Assembly: GCF_001456355.1 (NCBI RefSeq)
Contig: NZ_CP010271.1
Location: 992,001-1,056,000 of the forward strand
Direction: 5' to 3'
DNA length: 64,000 bases
Source: Mycobacteroides saopaulense
GTDB lineage: Bacteria > Actinomycetota > Actinomycetes > Mycobacteriales > Mycobacteriaceae
This document shows, one piece after another, positions 43,635 through 50,399 of the stretch. Position 1 is the stretch's first letter; each line of letters opens with the position of its first letter. Position numbers and translations under genes: made by a program. The notes beneath the pieces were generated by a model that was given only the letters and a program-made list of their open reading frames with translations, made no database searches and was not told the origin of the DNA.

Positions 43635-45476
43635 TTAGCCGTATATGCCGGCGAGGTACTCCGCCTGGCAGGCCCGGCGGGCGAGTTTTCCGCTGGTGGT
43701 GCGGGGTATTGCGCCTGCGGCGACGAGTCGGACGTCGGCTACCGGTAGTGCGTGGGTGCGGGATATGGCGGCGCGGATGGCGTCGGTGACGGGTGCTTGT
43801 TCGACGCGGCCGGATCCGGGTGCGCGTTCGGCGACGATCACCAGCCGTTCGCTGGTGTCGGCGATGGCGGCCTCGGCGAGCTGATTGGCCGCGACCGAGA
43901 AGGCCGCGACGTACCCGGAGCGCACGGCCGGGGAAGCGTCCGACGCGGTCGCCTCGATGTCCTGGGGGTAGTGGTTGCGTCCGTCGATGATGACGAGGTC
44001 CTTGATGCGGCCCGTGACGTAGAGACTGTTGTTCAGGTACACCCCGAGATCCCCGGTACGCAGCCACCGGCTGTGTTCGGCGGTTCCGGTGGCGTGGCTG
44101 TTGTTGTCCAGGCGCGAGTGCAGCCGGTTGTGGAAGGTCGCCTGCGTCTCGCGGGCGCGGCCCCAGTAGCCGCGGCCGATGTTGTCGCCGTGCAGCCAGA
44201 TCTCACCGATTTCCCCTTCGGGCAGTTCAGCTCCGGTGCGCGGGTCGACGATCACCAGCCACTGGCTGGAGATCACTTGACCGCATGAGACGTGGGGCAC
44301 GGCAGTGGGGTCGTCGGCGGACACGGGCACGGCACGGTCCTCGGCGAGCTGCGCGCGATCCAGGTAGATCAGGCTGGGGCATTCGTCGGGCGCGATGGTG
44401 GCGACCGAGAGCGTGGCCTCGGCCATGCCGTAGGACGGTTTGATGGCCGACGGGGGAAATCCGTAGGGGCCGAAGGCTTCGTTGAATTTCTCGATCGCCG
44501 AGATGGTGACCGGTTCGGATCCGTTGAGCAGGCCCGCCACATTGCTCAGGTCCCAGGTCTGTCCCGCGGGTGGGCGGCCGCGCTGTGCGGCGAGTTCGAA
44601 CGCGAAGTTCGGTGCCGCCGCGAAGACGCGGCCGTAGGCGGATTCGGTGGCCAGTTGCTTGATCCACCGACGCGGGCGTCGTACGAACGCCAACGGCGAC
44701 ATCAGGGTGATGTGGCCGCCGCACAGCGGGGGAAACAGGATCATGATCAGACCCATGTCGTGATACAGCGGCAGCCAGCTCACGCTGCGAATGTTCGTGT
44801 CCAGGCCGCCGGCCAGGATCATCTGCAGCACATTCGTACAGGCCGCGCGGTGCGTGATCTCGACACCGGCCGGGATGCGCGTAGAGCCCGACGTGTACTG
44901 CAGGTAGGCAAGGTCTTCGGTGTCGAGTTCGGCGGCCACGAACGTTGCGCCCACCGAGTCCGGAACCGCGTCGATCGCGATGACTCGCGGGCGGCGCTGG
45001 CGCGCAAGCTTGCGCAGGAACGCGTTTACCGATTCGGCCGCGGCGTCGGTGGTCAGGATGACCGACGGGGTGGCATCGGAGAGCACCGCGTCGAGGCGTT
45101 CGGTGTGGCCGGGCAGCTCGGGGGCGAACAGGGGGACCGCGATGTTTCCGGCCTGGATGGCGGCGAAGAACCCGATGACATAGTCGAGGCCCTGGGGCGC
45201 CAGGATCGCGACGCGATCACCCGGCTGTGTGACCTGTTGCAGGCGTGCACCGATGGCGCGCATGCGGGTGTTGAGGGCGTCCCAGCTCAATTCGATGGCC
45301 ACGCCGTCGTCGTCGCGGGTGAAGTCGAGGTAGCGGTAGGCGGCGGTGGAGCCGAACTCGGCAATGTTGTGCTCGAAGTTCGAGAGCAGAGTCGTGCCGG
45401 GAGGCAGATCAATCGAGCCGTCGGTGTCGAGGTAATCCTCAATCCCACGTTGGCGAACCGCTAGACCATCTGACAT
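43635..45476 (-). CDS. Fatty-acyl-AMP ligase (FAAL type)
   Basis: This 613-residue adenylate-forming enzyme shows YTSGSTRIPAGVEITH (phosphate loop near residue 170), WLPLYHDMGLI, YGMAEATLSV, TGDLGVYLNN and GRIKDLVIIDGRNHYPQDIE, with a C-terminal TTSGKLARR lysine. The long length and the DMGL(I) region fit FAALs, which load fatty acids on PKS or NRPS carrier proteins as acyl-AMP rather than acyl-CoA. No PKS is visible nearby. The ATG at 45476 follows GGGAG. It is 85 bp upstream of the XRE gene and may share its transcript. Confidence 0.88.
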   Translation of the reverse strand: MSDGLAVRQRGIEDYLDTDGSIDLPPGTTLLSNFEHNIAEFGSTAAYRYLDFTRDDDGVAIELSWDALNTRMRAIGARLQQVTQPGDRVAILAPQGLDYVIGFFAAIQAGNIAVPLFAPELPGHTERLDAVLSDATPSVILTTDAAAESVNAFLRKLARQRRPRVIAIDAVPDSVGATFVAAELDTEDLAYLQYTSGSTRIPAGVEITHRAACTNVLQMILAGGLDTNIRSVSWLPLYHDMGLIMILFPPLCGGHITLMSPLAFVRRPRRWIKQLATESAYGRVFAAAPNFAFELAAQRGRPPAGQTWDLSNVAGLLNGSEPVTISAIEKFNEAFGPYGFPPSAIKPSYGMAEATLSVATIAPDECPSLIYLDRAQLAEDRAVPVSADDPTAVPHVSCGQVISSQWLVIVDPRTGAELPEGEIGEIWLHGDNIGRGYWGRARETQATFHNRLHSRLDNNSHATGTAEHSRWLRTGDLGVYLNNSLYVTGRIKDLVIIDGRNHYPQDIEATASDASPAVRSGYVAAFSVAANQLAEAAIADTSERLVIVAERAPGSGRVEQAPVTDAIRAAISRTHALPVADVRLVAAGAIPRTTSGKLARRACQAEYLAGIYG

Positions 45477-45506
45477 ATCCCACTCCCGACTCACGATGAA
45501 AAACAC

Positions 45507-46088
45507 TACCTGCGCTAACTAAGTAAAACCTTTGTCCGCAGGTGACCCGTCGTACGAGAAGCGTGCGGCAACTTCCAACGTCGACGATCGCGCAGTCTGG
45601 TGACGAATCAACACCAGAATTCGACGAATTCTGGTGTACTCCAAGGGGTATCACTAACCGCTTGAGAGTTTCAATGTGATCCAGAGGTGTGTCGTGCGGC
45701 GGTGTGATCTTGGCCGTACGACGTGCCATGGTGGTGGGGGAGTCCGCCCAACACCGCCGACGAGATTATTCGTGTCCGCCCCGCTGCGGAGGATGCGGGC
45801 CACTCGATTTGGCACCTCCCTGTACGCGTTGAGCGGTATTCCGGAGATGCTCTGAGGGTGATGGACGCAGGCGTTTCAGCTCACTGCCTCCAGTACCCGC
45901 AACATGTGAATCAATGGTGCTCTGCTGGTGGGAGTGGGAAGGATCTTGAAACGTCTAGCGATGTTCTGTACCGGGTGAACATTCTTTGCCAGCGTGACTC
46001 GCGCCACCTCTAGAACTGGCATATGCTGGCATGATTAGTGTGCCGCAATGCATGGCATAGTTGCGAGTGTTGGGAAGGTGAACTGCCG
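45507..46088. other. 582-bp non-coding region holding a large palindrome
   Basis: No convincing gene is visible. A 96-codon open frame (45723-46013, plus strand) has no ribosome binding site and no family resemblance. The region holds promoters for the fatty-acyl-AMP ligase (leftward) and the toxin-like gene (rightward), plus the 27-bp palindrome. A ribosome binding site GGGAAGG ends 11 nt before the GTG at 46089. Confidence 0.5.
45611..45637. repeat. 27-bp perfect palindrome
   Basis: ACACCAGAATTCG (45611-45623), a central A, and CGAATTCTGGTGT (45625-45637) form a perfect inverted repeat with 13-bp arms. It lies 134 nt upstream of the fatty-acyl-AMP ligase start. The length is unusual for chance. 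It could be an operator, a recombination site or a cruciform. Confidence 0.9.
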
Positions 46089-49000
46089 GTGAGTCCTGTG
46101 GGCCGTGATGCGAGCGACGCGACAACAGTCCTAACGTGCCGTGACCTGACCCATTCCAGCGAACCGCAGCCCGCACCCGCTGCTACCGGGTCGGTGCCCT
46201 TGGGAGCCGACGGGGGTCGGCGGATCGCCGCTGTTGCTGCCGGGCTGGTGTTGGTGGTGGCGGCGGTCGCCGGTCTGCATGGCTTGTACCGAGCCGGTAG
46301 CGATGTTGCGGCGTGGGGTGTCTGGAGTGTGCTGCTACTGGCGGGCATGACCGCGCTCGGGGGCGGGATCAAGCTGGCCATGTGGGGGTTTAGGCCGATG
46401 ATCGCGGCAGTGTCCGCTACCGGTAAGGAACGGTTGTCTGAGCCGGTGCAGGCCTTCGCGGCTGCCCTCGGGGTGATTGCCGGGGCGGTGGGCATGTGGT
46501 GGACCTTGCGGGGCGGCTGCAACGCATGGTGGCAACACCTTTCCGGCGCACCGGGCTGGACACTGCTACTCGGTGTCGGGCAGATGGCGGTGGCGGTGCT
46601 CGCGGGGGCCGCGTTGTTCACGGGTGGTAGGTACCTGACCGGCTTGAGTAAAGAAGTGTTGACCGATGTCGGAATGCTCGGTGCACGCGGCCGCGCTTCT
46701 AGTGCCGAAAATGCAGGAGCACACCGTCACACTGCTGCCAGCAGCTCCGGCGGTGACGAGAAGCTGTGGCACCCAGGGTTGTTGGCGGCGTTGATCGCGG
46801 GCGGGGCCGGGTTGGTGCTGTTGGCCGCTGGGATCACCCCGAAGTTGTATGTGTGGATCGCCGGCCCTGACGTGTTTCCCGCAGTGACTGCGATCGCAAT
46901 AACGTTGGTGTGGGGGATCGGGTCGAATCTGGGTTGGTGGAAAGGCCTGGGCGGCCTGTACGCGTGGGCTACGGATGCTTCCCAGAAAGCCTCAGCGGTC
47001 GCCGGTGTTGTTGCGCTACTGATGTTTTCCGCTGGTGGTTTGGGGTTGGGCTGGTTCACCCCGGCCACGGTGCCGCAGGCCCGTGCGGCGTGCCCGCCGG
47101 ATTGCGGTGGCCCGGGCGGTAGCGATGGTCCTCCCGGGGGTGGACAAATGTTCCAGCCCCCGAGTCAGGGTGGGCCGCAGATGCCTGATTATCAGGGCGG
47201 TATCAATCAGCCGCCGATGGATCAAAACAGCTCGATTTCGATCTACAACACGCAAGCCCCCTCAGTAGGTAACACCAGCGGCTCCCAAGGCGCGCAGCAA
47301 GGGCCTCAGCAAGGTTGGGATCAGCCCGCACACGGCACCCAGCCTCCGGACTATCAAAACGCGACCCCCTACACCCAAGGTCCGGGGCGTCCCAACCCCG
47401 ATTACAACCCCGGCGGCCAGCCCAACTCGGGATCGCAAGGCGCACAACCCAACCAGGGCGCTCAACAACCGCCGGCCAACCAAGGCAACCAAGGCGCTCA
47501 ACAGCCCCCGTCGCAGAACAGTGGGCAACAGCCACCGCAAGAAAACACCGGGCAGCAGCCGCAACAGTCCGATCAGCAGCGCCTTGATGAGTTGACCCGG
47601 CAGTTGCAGGACCAACAGCAGCAGTCCACCCAGGACCGCCAACGTATTGATGATCTGACCAAGCAACTCCAACGGCAGCAGGGGCAGCAGAAGAACGGCA
47701 ACCAGAAACTGCCCAAGGCTCCGAGCAAAGACAAGAAACAAGACGACAAAGACCAACAGGACCAGGACGACCAATCGGGCAACAATGACCTGTCCGCGTT
47801 GTTGATGGGTGCAGCCTCCACGCGACGCCGCAAACAGGACGACCAACCCCAGCCCAACCAACAGCAAGTGCAGGGGCCAGATACCCAAGCCCTAGCCCAA
47901 GACGGGGCGCAGCTGGGCCAATCGTTGCCCGGAGACATCGCCAACACCGTTTCCGATTCGGTAAATCTGGGGCAGTCGGCGGGATCAGCGGCACAAAACT
48001 TCGGGTCCGCCGCTCAGGCTGGCGCGTCGCTCGCTTCGTCGGCGCAGTCGGGTGCGGTCAATCCGATGGACGCCGTCGCGGTCGTGCAGGGCATCTCCGG
48101 GGGGATCAGCGATACCGCTGACGCCGTGGGGTCGGGTGCGTCGATTGCCTCCACCTGGCTGGGTGAGGCCGGTCAAGGTACTCAGTTGGCCGCTGATGCG
48201 AATCCGCAGCTCAAACCCCAGGCCGAGCAGATCCAGCAGCTCACGAAGGCTGGTGGGCAGGTTGCGGACCTCACGGGCAAAGTCGCAGGCGGCGTCTCCC
48301 AGGTATCTGGAATGGTCAACACCGCTTCAAGTCTGGGCACATCCGGCATACCCGACACCTCCGGTGCCACCGACGCGCTTTCGGGGACCGCTACTGCCGT
48401 CAACGGACCCTCCGACATCCCCACCTCACCAACACCGCCTGCCCCGTCTGCGCCACCGCAATCCTCATCGAGTGTGCAAGCGCTCGACAGTACGACAACC
48501 CGGGCACCGCACCAACCTGACTCGGTTGACCCGTCGAAGGGGCGTGCGCCGTCGCCTGGAGAGCCAGGGTTTATCGGGCCGGTCGCGGTGGATCAGCCAC
48601 CCGGCCAGGTACCTGTGTCTTACCCGGTTGGGAGTTCGTCATGGGAAATCCCTGGACATCCCGGGATTCAGGTGATCCGAAGTACGGATCTTAATGGGTC
48701 TCTGTTGAATTTCACCGTATCGGGCAGGGGGGCAGCTAGGCCATTTACGGATAGTGCCGGTAAGCAGTGGGTGGAGACGGCTGATAATAAGAATCGAACG
48801 GTTTGGGTTTCGCCCGATGGCTCCTTTTTTGATGGCCCGTTTGTAGGTCCCCCCAGTGGCCATACCGTGACACAGCCAAGCCTGAAAGATCTAGACAATT
48901 GGGTATCAGAAAAGGGGCAGGGCGTTGCTGATTTCTTTTTCCCACTCGAAGATATTTATAAGGGTGTCACTAATTGGCAGGACGCTTCCACTGGTGAAAA

Positions 49001-49409
49001 TATCACTACCACCGTGCAAATCCTGGGCATGCTTCCCGGAGGCGGCATAGTTGGCAAGTTTCTCGGCAAAGGTGGCCAATGGGTTACTCGCCTCATTAAG
49101 CCTGCCGAACGGGCGGGGGGCTCAGTAGGTCGGTTGACCATAGAAAATATCATGACAGATCCAAAATTGCTCGCTGGCCGCACTCCCCAAGAGGTTGAGT
49201 CTGCCCTGGGTAATGTTCCAGGATGGCGCGTTGAATCCTTGGGTAAAGGTGGCTCAAAGGGAGAGGGATGGGTATTTCGGGAGTATACGGAAAAGGGGAA
49301 CCCTACGGGGAAAATGCTACGCTGGCATCCCGGTGGAGGGCACCACGGACCTGACCCATACTGGCGCGTGATAGGGCCAAACGGAGATTTGGGAGGAGTG
49401 ATCAGATGA
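46089..49409 (+). CDS. Polymorphic-toxin-like multidomain membrane protein
   Basis: This 1106-residue protein has four recognisable parts. Residues 40-330 carry about seven hydrophobic helices. Residues 340-600 are rich in Gln, Pro, Asn and Gly and end in a Gln-rich coiled coil (QRLDELTRQLQDQQQQ). Residues 620-760 form a small-residue helical region (LGQSAGSAAQNFGSAAQAGA). A Pro-rich linker leads to a C-terminal domain from about 840, ending in VFREYTEKGNPTG, MLRWHPGGGHHGPDPYWRV and GGVIR. A long variable carrier with a short C-terminal domain followed by a coupled small gene is the layout of a polymorphic toxin. Base composition falls visibly from about 48.65 kb. The GTG at 46089 follows GGGAAGG. 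Nuclease activity is inferred only. Confidence 0.75.
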   Translation: MSPVGRDASDATTVLTCRDLTHSSEPQPAPAATGSVPLGADGGRRIAAVAAGLVLVVAAVAGLHGLYRAGSDVAAWGVWSVLLLAGMTALGGGIKLAMWGFRPMIAAVSATGKERLSEPVQAFAAALGVIAGAVGMWWTLRGGCNAWWQHLSGAPGWTLLLGVGQMAVAVLAGAALFTGGRYLTGLSKEVLTDVGMLGARGRASSAENAGAHRHTAASSSGGDEKLWHPGLLAALIAGGAGLVLLAAGITPKLYVWIAGPDVFPAVTAIAITLVWGIGSNLGWWKGLGGLYAWATDASQKASAVAGVVALLMFSAGGLGLGWFTPATVPQARAACPPDCGGPGGSDGPPGGGQMFQPPSQGGPQMPDYQGGINQPPMDQNSSISIYNTQAPSVGNTSGSQGAQQGPQQGWDQPAHGTQPPDYQNATPYTQGPGRPNPDYNPGGQPNSGSQGAQPNQGAQQPPANQGNQGAQQPPSQNSGQQPPQENTGQQPQQSDQQRLDELTRQLQDQQQQSTQDRQRIDDLTKQLQRQQGQQKNGNQKLPKAPSKDKKQDDKDQQDQDDQSGNNDLSALLMGAASTRRRKQDDQPQPNQQQVQGPDTQALAQDGAQLGQSLPGDIANTVSDSVNLGQSAGSAAQNFGSAAQAGASLASSAQSGAVNPMDAVAVVQGISGGISDTADAVGSGASIASTWLGEAGQGTQLAADANPQLKPQAEQIQQLTKAGGQVADLTGKVAGGVSQVSGMVNTASSLGTSGIPDTSGATDALSGTATAVNGPSDIPTSPTPPAPSAPPQSSSSVQALDSTTTRAPHQPDSVDPSKGRAPSPGEPGFIGPVAVDQPPGQVPVSYPVGSSSWEIPGHPGIQVIRSTDLNGSLLNFTVSGRGAARPFTDSAGKQWVETADNKNRTVWVSPDGSFFDGPFVGPPSGHTVTQPSLKDLDNWVSEKGQGVADFFFPLEDIYKGVTNWQDASTGENITTTVQILGMLPGGGIVGKFLGKGGQWVTRLIKPAERAGGSVGRLTIENIMTDPKLLAGRTPQEVESALGNVPGWRVESLGKGGSKGEGWVFREYTEKGNPTGKMLRWHPGGGHHGPDPYWRVIGPNGDLGGVIR

Positions 49410-49735
49410 CGTCAGAGTCTGATAGTTGGCTCAACAATTTTATAAAAGTTATTGAGAGACTGGCGGCACCCGCTAAAGAGCAAATCGACTATATAAACGG
49501 ACTTGATATTCCGGTCGACGAACTTGCGCTTGAATTTGACTCGTTATACCTTGTCGATCGACTATCTCTAACGAATGAGCAGCTGGGTTATTCAAATCAA
49601 ATCGATCGGCTTCTGGACGACCTATCAAATGACGACGACAAAGGGCAGTGGTCTCGTGAAGGGCTAATTTCAGACTTGCGTTGGGGTGAAATCCGAAGAA
49701 CAGCCGACCTACTCCTCGCCTCGCTAAGAAGGTAG
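49406..49735 (+). CDS. Candidate immunity protein
   Basis: This 109-residue acidic helical protein (LNNFIKVIERLAAPAKEQID, DELALEFDSLYLVDRL, LIRR-like C-terminal helix) resembles no family I can name. Its ATG overlaps the toxin stop (ATGA), and its codons are markedly AT-rich relative to the backbone, as in the toxin's C-terminal domain. Position and size fit a cytosolic immunity protein against the preceding toxin domain. Confidence 0.72.
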   Translation: MTSESDSWLNNFIKVIERLAAPAKEQIDYINGLDIPVDELALEFDSLYLVDRLSLTNEQLGYSNQIDRLLDDLSNDDDKGQWSREGLISDLRWGEIRRTADLLLASLRR

Positions 49736-50179
49736 AACGGATGCTGTGTACGGTCGATAGCAACGAGTGTGAGGACCGCGGAGACTGAGTCTTTTGGCCT
49801 TATGGATGTGTCGGGTATTCCAGTGGTTGCCGGTGCTCGCGCGCTATCTTGGTCGCCGCACGAAGCGTGAGTACCCGGACCAGCTGAACCAGGGGCCCTC
49901 CGGCTCGCCGCCGTTTCCATGCCAGCATCCCGGTCGTAGAGCTGATTGCGCACCTGCGCCAGCAGATCACCGCGTTGCGCCAGATCGCAAGGAGTGTGTT
50001 CCCAATCCCGGCTCCCTGAGACCTGCCAGCGGCAGAAATTGCGAGTAACGCTACCGGAGTTTCGGCTGAAGGGTTCGAAAACAGTAGGCTCTGATGAGTT
50101 CAGGTCAGGCGCGTGGGGCTAAAGCGTCGGCTACGGTACGACAGGTACTAGAGGCTCGACAATGGCTCTGACCCGCGAA
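49736..50179. other. 444-bp region without a recognised gene
   Basis: No complete gene is supported. A short stretch around 49898-50019 reads in one plus-strand frame as HASIPVVELIAHLRQQITAL and then RQIARSVFPIPAP before a stop, which looks like a decayed gene end. The region otherwise separates the toxin/immunity pair from the tRNA. Confidence 0.4.
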
Positions 50180-50253
50180 GCCCCCATAGCCCAATTGGCA
50201 GAGGCAGCGGACTTAAAATCCGCCAAGTGTCGGTTCGAGTCCGACTGGGGGCA
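50180..50253 (+). tRNA. tRNA-Leu (anticodon TAA), short variable arm
   Basis: The 74-nt cloverleaf has acceptor pairs GCCCCCA/TGGGGGC, discriminator A, anticodon arm GCGGA-CTTAAAA-TCCGC with anticodon TAA, and T arm GTCGG-TTCGAGT-CCGAC. The variable loop is only 5 nt (CAAGT), whereas leucine tRNAs normally have a long variable arm. CCA is not encoded. Decoding of UUA is inferred from the anticodon. Confidence 0.9.
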
Positions 50254-50399
50254 CCGAGCACGAGGCGGTAAGGCACTGATCGGTTGGCCGTTTCAATCCG
50301 GACGCACCCACGCCTTTCGATTTCCTGTACAGCGGACTCGTCACAGTCATACATTGAGCCGTGGAGCCAAAACGGCTCTCGAGCCGACCCACGAAGCTG

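Follow-up and report, generated by a model that had tools for sequence, protein, structure and literature searches.

Gene pair and carrier architecture

We analysed a window of 64,000 nucleotides from Mycobacteroides saopaulense (contig NZ_CP010271.1, positions 992,001 to 1,056,000), in which the gene for a large, putatively membrane-anchored carrier protein with a candidate toxin tip is followed directly by a small candidate immunity gene. The genome of the window (G000 below, where genomes have G numbers and loci L numbers) is one contig of 4.65 Mb. An earlier note on this DNA had claimed a carrier of 1106 residues and an ATGA-coupled gene of 109 codons, and both genes are as described: the open reading frame (ORF) from a GTG codon at 46089 to 49409 gives 1106 aa, and the ATGA at 49406–49409 holds the carrier stop and the start of the small gene, which ends at 49735 and has GGGAGGAG shortly 5′ of its ATG. 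The carrier frame is open already from 46038; the start at 46089 is supported because homologues, such as L011 and an annotated prophage gene in L080, begin at matching residues (VS.V.RD). We regard the 109-codon ORF as a real gene because homologues about 50% identical occur in two further genomes. No Pfam or NCBIfam family reached its cut-off in either protein. The features are as follows.

46089..49409, + strand: carrier with tip, 1106 aa (ORF, homologues)
46224..47051, + strand: membrane unit of about seven helices, residues 46–321 (hydropathy; low-confidence model; conserved in 35 aligned rows)
47079..47108, + strand: ARAACPPDCG, probable signal-peptidase site and then the start of the stalk (invariant in the alignment; parallel in L136)
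47088..48368, + strand: Gln/Pro-rich stalk, then an Ala/Ser/Gly-rich part, to about residue 760 (alignment; PHROG matches)
47187..47405, + strand: stalk core common to short prophage proteins, residues 367–439 (tblastn, 21 phage records)
49011..49067, + strand: hydrophobic segment before the tip, TVQILGMLPGGGIVGKFLG (peak hydropathy 1.13; region common to carrier L017)
49125..49406, + strand: tip, candidate toxin domain, residues 1013–1106 (in no other genome searched; model pLDDT 78.7)
49406..49735, + strand: candidate immunity gene, 109 codons (ATGA overlap; homologues beside another carrier or fused to Imm35)
45740..50167, no strand: cassette just 5′ of tRNA-Leu, left edge 45719–45740, right edge about 50167–50179 (flank comparison)
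50180–50255: tRNA-Leu (TAA)

The GC content (in brackets GC3, that of third codon positions) is 0.670 (0.729) in the membrane part, 0.630 (0.696) in the stalk, 0.557 (0.530) over 48501–49406, 0.546 (0.500) in the last 94 residues and 0.462 (0.450) in the small gene. The drop in the C-terminal domain and the small gene that had been noted earlier is seen here too, but it is not confined to them, as the DNA 5′ of the carrier gene (about 45350–46100) is also low, at 0.54–0.59.

Hydropathy of the carrier gives eight peaks, two of them overlapping, and therefore about seven membrane helices, in agreement with the number first proposed; a low-confidence structure model, too poor for fold searching, likewise has seven helices of at least 20 residues. 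The unit is conserved, with a mean column identity of 59% over 35 rows, and the motif A-x-A-x-CPPDCG after the last helix is invariant in all 35. Because there are about seven helices, and the loops richer in Lys and Arg are on the presumed inner side, the C-terminus of the carrier would lie on the outer side of the membrane. A hydrophobic helix followed by A-x-A on that presumed outer side has the sequence arrangement of a signal-peptidase-I site. The stalk behind it is Gln/Pro-rich as the earlier note stated, and the coiled coil that the note also mentioned is a judgement by eye. From the last helix into the stalk, the carrier matches two PHROG families of no assigned function (E 5.4e-27 and 9.4e-22; residues 299–468 and 307–516).

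Profile searches of the carrier were negative for several known systems. The whole carrier at E up to 1 and four membrane units at E up to 10 had no WXG-type Pfam match, and the same four units had no PrsW profile match up to E 10. There was no invariant Glu or Asp before CPPDC among the 35 rows, and no FHA or RHS repeat match in the carrier in the Pfam scan. The membrane units gave no Pfam match to TrbL or VirB6, families that are very divergent and for which no profile–profile comparison was made. A weak match to PSMbeta (E 0.001, below cut-off) lies at residues 601–631 (window 47889–47981), in the Ala/Ser-rich end of the stalk, and recurs in 5 of 27 carriers; we treat it as a lead, perhaps to a membrane-active helix.

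Exchanged tips and the genes behind them

The alignment of 27 complete carriers (21 large ones and six of a shorter group B) shows a common N-terminal part and stalk, and the consensus dissolves after about residue 760. Tip counts exclude L008r (internal TAG), L064r, L068r and L086 (early stops) and L013 and L024 (contig ends). When 29 tips were scanned singly, 12 reached the Pfam cut-off, in ten families: nucleases, namely Tox-REase-5, Tox-REase-7, Endonuclea_NS_2 (two tips), GH-E and Colicin-DNase with WHH; Gln_amidase (two; a papain-fold toxin); and the wall hydrolases Amidase_6, SLT and GH19 (two). Other carriers end in glycine-zipper sequence, and the tips of group B are glycine-rich and hydrophobic.

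The window's carrier and L011 are 82% identical in the membrane part and 88% in the stalk, and 21% in the last 200 aa, where shuffled sequence gives 26%. A second copy in the window's genome and the carriers of G087, G151, G279 and G302 have at least 1.9 kb of upstream DNA in common, at 87–95% in all ten pairs, and because every pair shares this DNA we consider the five loci to be one orthologous site; parts of the same upstream region are found at L012 in another arrangement. Three carriers at this site are complete (L007r, L055r and L062r) and have unrelated tips, and the other two are broken or truncated. Between the two carriers of G151, five successive 150-base segments of the stalk each have an identity of 1.00 (rounded), after which the tips are unrelated, a mark of recent recombination. 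Conversely, L012 and L089 have tips 95% identical on membrane parts 65% identical. C-termini are thus unrelated between genomes, between copies within one genome and at one orthologous site. The invariant C-terminus that the earlier note had held against its own proposal was not found: in comparisons between species and paralogues the N-terminus is conserved and the C-termini are unrelated. A conserved N-terminal part with unrelated, exchangeable C-terminal domains is one mark of a polymorphic toxin system, and on the alignments the carriers are of modular build with exchanged tips. Broken or truncated carriers (L008, L064 and L068) were also seen in G087 and G302, and decay of the family is frequent.

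As the next gene of a carrier we took the first ORF of at least 60 aa starting −25 to +130 bases from the carrier stop. A next gene with an N-terminal hydrophobic segment follows 5/5 wall-acting tips and 0/8 cytosol-acting tips (Fisher P = 7.8e-4). The duplicates L089, L090, L056 and L026 were excluded from this comparison, and loci with no Pfam class were left out: L015, L016, L019, L023, L025, L062r, L063, L080/L081, L082, L087, L088 and the window. Among these, the next gene has such a segment at L015, L016, L023, L062r, L063 and L082 and lacks it at L025, L080, L087, L088 and in the window. In group B, four of the five tips counted as distinct have behind them a gene whose protein contains three hydrophobic segments; the tips of L065r and L066 resemble each other and so are not independent.

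Ten next genes were scanned for families. The Tox-REase-5 tip is followed by Imm52 (E 4.5e-17), the Tox-REase-7 tip by weak HEAT repeats (E 0.0019, below cut-off) and one Gln_amidase tip by Imm35 (E 2.6e-5, below cut-off). Of the two NS_2 tips, one has a YezG-like immunity protein behind it (E 5.4e-5, above cut-off) and the other SUKH (E 5.2e-5, below cut-off). The next genes of L014 and L055 gave no family above E 0.01. The pairs Tox-REase-5/Imm52, Tox-PL1/Imm35 and Tox-REase-7/HEAT are described by Zhang (2012; PMC3482391; here as elsewhere a citation stands for the part of the paper drawn on), where we read the name Tox-PL1 as Pfam's papain fold toxin 1. Where tips match, as in L012/L089 and L083/L090, the next genes match too. 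Tip-specific genes of immunity type thus lie directly downstream of the carriers, with L019 as the exception, and tip and next gene match in compartment and family as far as their sequences can be classed.

The window's own tip would belong to the cytosolic class and is perhaps a nuclease. The hydropathy of the pre-tip region separates wall-acting from cytosolic tips completely (P = 0.0016), and the window falls with the latter; its pre-tip region is 31% identical to that of L017 over 256 columns. The last 288 aa turned up in a single genome of 148 and the last 94 aa in a single one of 13 carrier genomes, in both cases the window's own, and viral contigs, phages, plasmids and PDB sequences gave no match to the tip. 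A search with the toxin domain reached E ≤ 0.01 in 11 of 396 phylum genomes. Apart from the window's genome itself, the ten matches were short or weak and were rejected as chance, and L070, L072, L073, L075 and L078, viewed in three frames, held no convincing relative of the tip. A single-sequence model of the tip has a pLDDT of 78.7, and the fold listing obtained with it does not exclude families absent from that listing.

The small gene at 49406 is very probably an immunity gene, because in a congener one of its homologues is joined to an Imm35 domain. Three of the 13 carrier genomes, the window's own included, have a homologue. In G151 the homologue stands in tandem directly behind the next gene of carrier L055r. 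G206 has a 213-aa ORF in two halves: the second is the homologue, at 50% identity to the small protein of the window over 104 aa, and the first belongs to Imm35 (E 1.7e-10, above cut-off) and shares 49% identity with the next gene of L020, another carrier. Such immunity fusions are called polyimmunity proteins (Zhang, 2012; PMC3482391), and the fusion in G206 is of this kind, with the tandem gene in G151 as a polyimmunity gene. The immunity role foreseen for the gene in the earlier note is strengthened by these neighbours. A distant homologue on a Streptomyces plasmid is a weak match with no recognisable toxin adjoining; viral contigs and phages gave no match, and among 396 phylum genomes the sole match was the window's own genome.

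Probable stalk export, distribution and insertion

The stalk is not tied to the membrane unit. By tblastn its core occurs in 21 phage records, four carrier records included, and in eight of the other 17 that were examined it belongs to proteins of 312–493 aa with a plain signal peptide (by eye), the stalk core and variable ends; one of these is annotated as a metallopeptidase, and the lipoprotein-like gene behind it as its inhibitor. Of ten stalk loci in the window's genome, two include the membrane unit; the other eight are short (L130–L136) and lie near positions 965782, 1426968, 1660567, 1700201, 2341693, 2345771, 2682220 and 4585555 of its contig (G000:C1). The variable ends of these eight proteins are amidase, GH19-like, HNH-like and others without assignment, and a lipoprotein-like gene follows six of the eight genes (by eye). 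Ten short stalk proteins were scanned, three of them from prophages and the other seven from this genome; four had a Pfam match at E ≤ 0.01, with Amidase_2 above cut-off and GH19, GmrSD_C and metallopeptidases below it. In L136, ARADCPPDCGG comes directly after a plain signal peptide. As the stalk stands behind a plain signal peptide with the motif in common, A-x-A-x-CPPDCG is most simply read as a predicted signal-peptidase site, and the stalk after plain signal peptides, together with ARA-D-CPPDCGG in L136, favours export of the stalk by Sec and release by signal peptidase.

Two side observations concern the short genes. Near six of eight of them in M. abscessus and M. chelonae prophages (L102–L109) there is a related small protein, mostly lipoprotein-like, with the conserved end HP.R.FTVCTE, and a similar gene lies behind L130; it is possibly an accessory part. 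The two neighbouring short genes of L135 (G000:C1:2341693 and 2345771) have a long identical stalk stretch (by eye) and different ends, and look as after recent copying.

Among 148 relatives the membrane part was seen in 2, and among 396 genomes of the genus in 14; a profile of its 35 rows, run against 298 genomes of the order, matched that of the window alone. Scanning genome contigs for a pattern yielded 17 carrier loci, several per genome. The stalk-and-tip family occurs in 11 of 13 genomes, a set made up of the window's genome and twelve selected as carrier-bearing. Named relatives found by the carrier are Mycobacteroides, and the others are Mycobacterium strains. The membrane part further occurs in 4 of 50,697 phage records, all M. 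abscessus prophages, in 3 of 72,556 plasmid records, all M. abscessus, and in five viral contigs. The prophage carriers L080 and L081 lie mid-genome, 5′ of terminase genes. The plasmid carriers L082 (pGD21-1) and L083 (pGD54) have wall-hydrolase-like tips followed by lipoprotein-like genes, the tip of L083 being GH19 by Pfam and that of L082 SLT-like by eye; on pGD21-1 a MobF relaxase gene lies about 9 kb from the carrier.

In the window the cassette is a 4.4-kb insertion beside tRNA-Leu, as judged from flanking sequence: in four of six congener regions the flanks are joined by 40–69 bases instead of the cassette of about 4.4 kb, and of the other two G087 has a different insertion and G279 no match to the left flank. 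On the other side of the tRNA, the gene that follows it in the window is 2 to 13 kb away in five of nine other genomes and directly behind the tRNA in three, while in G279 only the tRNA was matched. The cassette edges have no 11-base direct repeat in common and one 11-base inverted match, and no recombinase search was made. The tRNA-Leu (TAA) appears as a hotspot, with upstream insertions in the window's genome and G087 and downstream inserts in five genomes (L091–L096), some of which carry partial tRNA repeats.

Interpretation and known systems

We suggest that the locus is very likely a polymorphic toxin–immunity module on a putatively membrane-anchored stalk carrier of which we found no description. 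A conserved carrier, unrelated tips and a small gene of immunity type agree with the toxin/immunity arrangement put forward in the earlier note. The membrane unit would sit in the inner membrane and its last helix would work as an internal signal peptide, so that signal peptidase may cut after A-x-A and release the stalk, with ACPPDCGG as its first residues, on the outer side. It could then display an exchangeable tip, which would reach or get into a nearby and probably related bacterium. Wall-acting tips would work outside, where exported or lipoprotein immunity proteins could meet them; cytosol-acting tips would have a hydrophobic segment before them and be met by cytosolic immunity proteins. 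The window's tip may belong to the latter class, perhaps as a nuclease, with the gene at 49406 as its putative antidote. Tip and immunity gene would be swapped together via recombination in the conserved stalk, and cassettes would travel on prophages, plasmids and small islands. It is plausible, with the arguments about evenly balanced, that this constitutes a delivery class outside the routes of Zhang (2012), in which a membrane unit or signal peptide exports an envelope-spanning Gln/Pro stalk with swappable tips independently of type VII secretion, and which, at as many as ten stalk loci per genome, is spread by prophages, plasmids and tRNA-side insertions.

Several points weigh against this interpretation. 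The proposal offers no route for the stalk through the mycobacterial outer layer or for the tip into a target, and the structure model of the membrane unit is poor. The wall class consists of five loci, one of which (L007r) was assigned by a Pfam match below cut-off; carrier L019 has no ORF of at least 60 aa close behind it; and at one group B locus of the five, L061r, a gene for a non-membrane protein comes first and the three-segment gene second. The window's tip has no recognised family, and the fold matches of its model are weak, below the level the tool regards as meaningful (compared with the PT7-type fold 8owu).

The most serious competitor concerns the membrane unit, which we think could possibly, though rather doubtfully, have an active part in export or processing, as has been proposed for PrsW fusions, instead of being a mere anchor with an internal signal peptide. 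Its conservation (59% mean column identity over 35 rows) exceeds what an anchor needs, and PrsW fusions have the same order of parts (PMC3482391); the missing PrsW match up to E 10, the lack of an invariant Glu or Asp before CPPDC and the occurrence of the stalk behind plain signal peptides argue against such a device. It is unlikely that the family serves wall remodelling or display, in which stalk enzymes would open the wall of the producing cell itself to let phages out, pass plasmids on or allow growth, and the lipoproteins would be regulators. Several tips are indeed wall hydrolases (Amidase_6, SLT, GH19), some short stalk proteins likewise (Amidase_2, and GH19 below cut-off), and both plasmid carriers examined (L083 and L082) end in wall-hydrolase-like tips, but a further eight distinct tips are of nuclease or papain-fold toxin type and have cytosolic proteins encoded behind them, known immunity families stand behind several tips, and tips have been exchanged at one site.

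We give still less weight to export of the carrier by type VII (ESX) secretion, the route of known mycobacterial polymorphic toxins. The M. abscessus prophage toxins of Dedrick (2021; PMC8092301) are all WXG-100 proteins thought to be exported by ESX, and the tip families overlap (Tox-REase-5, Endo-NS2), but the carrier has no WXG-type match, and what stands before the stalk is a membrane unit or a plain signal peptide. The missing WXG profile and the comparison with that paper bear out the remark in the earlier note that this is not a recognised ESX-type carrier. Least probable of all seems a toxin directed at animal or protist cells, a thought that arises since the genus includes opportunistic pathogens. 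The prophage toxins have been tied to growth in the host (Dedrick, 2021; PMC8092301), but wall-acting tips and tip-matched immunity genes make sense against bacteria, and the immunity-gene array and the Imm35 fusion point to bacteria too.

If the toxin–immunity reading is true, a ready-made, testable stalk-and-tip system lies in genomes, prophages and plasmids, and it would show how toxins are presented across the mycobacterial envelope without ESX. Apart from type VII secretion, little is known of how mycobacteria antagonise one another, and the family supplies many new candidate toxin–immunity pairs, of which the window's pair is without a recognised family.

Polymorphic toxins are known in kind, and among the titles and abstracts listed in searches of the open-licence literature none describes this carrier. 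At least eight export routes for such toxins, PrsW included, are listed by Zhang (2012; PMC3482391). All prophage polymorphic toxins of Dedrick (2021; PMC8092301) have WXG-100 motifs and lie near attachment sites, and the words 'transmembrane' and 'membrane protein' are absent from its main text; the MabR prophage paper (PMC9434293) likewise deals with WXG-100 cassettes, and a 2022 review of M. abscessus secretion (PMC9308005) cites, in the part drawn on, a prophage toxin as the sole one. The WXG-100 cassettes resemble the system described here in host group, in variable tips including Tox-REase-5 and Endo-NS2, in the immunity gene directly behind, sometimes a lipoprotein, and in being prophage-borne; they differ in an N-terminal WXG-100, a size of about 50 kDa, an ESAT-6-like partner and a position by attachment sites (PMC8092301). 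In contrast, the carrier here has a membrane unit and stalk, and L080 and L081 are placed mid-genome before terminase genes.

The PrsW peptidase has acidic active-site residues in the membrane. Toxins fused to it share with our carrier an N-terminal multi-helix membrane domain, a C-terminal toxin and a proposed release by proteolysis (PMC3482391). The carrier differs from them in having no PrsW profile and no invariant acidic residue in the membrane part, a signal-peptidase-like site instead of its own protease, and a long Gln/Pro stalk. Contact-dependent toxins of the CdiA and RHS types also have a long carrier, a hydrophobic stretch before cytosol-acting tips and tips swapped with immunity genes, whereas the carrier here has no FHA or RHS repeat match, a low-complexity stalk and a mycobacterial envelope to cross. 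Lastly, staphylococcal TspA is a membrane-depolarising toxin on an LXG/type VII carrier with a membrane immunity protein, and group B resembles it in having hydrophobic tips rich in glycine with small multi-helix proteins encoded behind them, but these tips are borne on a membrane unit and stalk in place of the LXG/type VII carrier.

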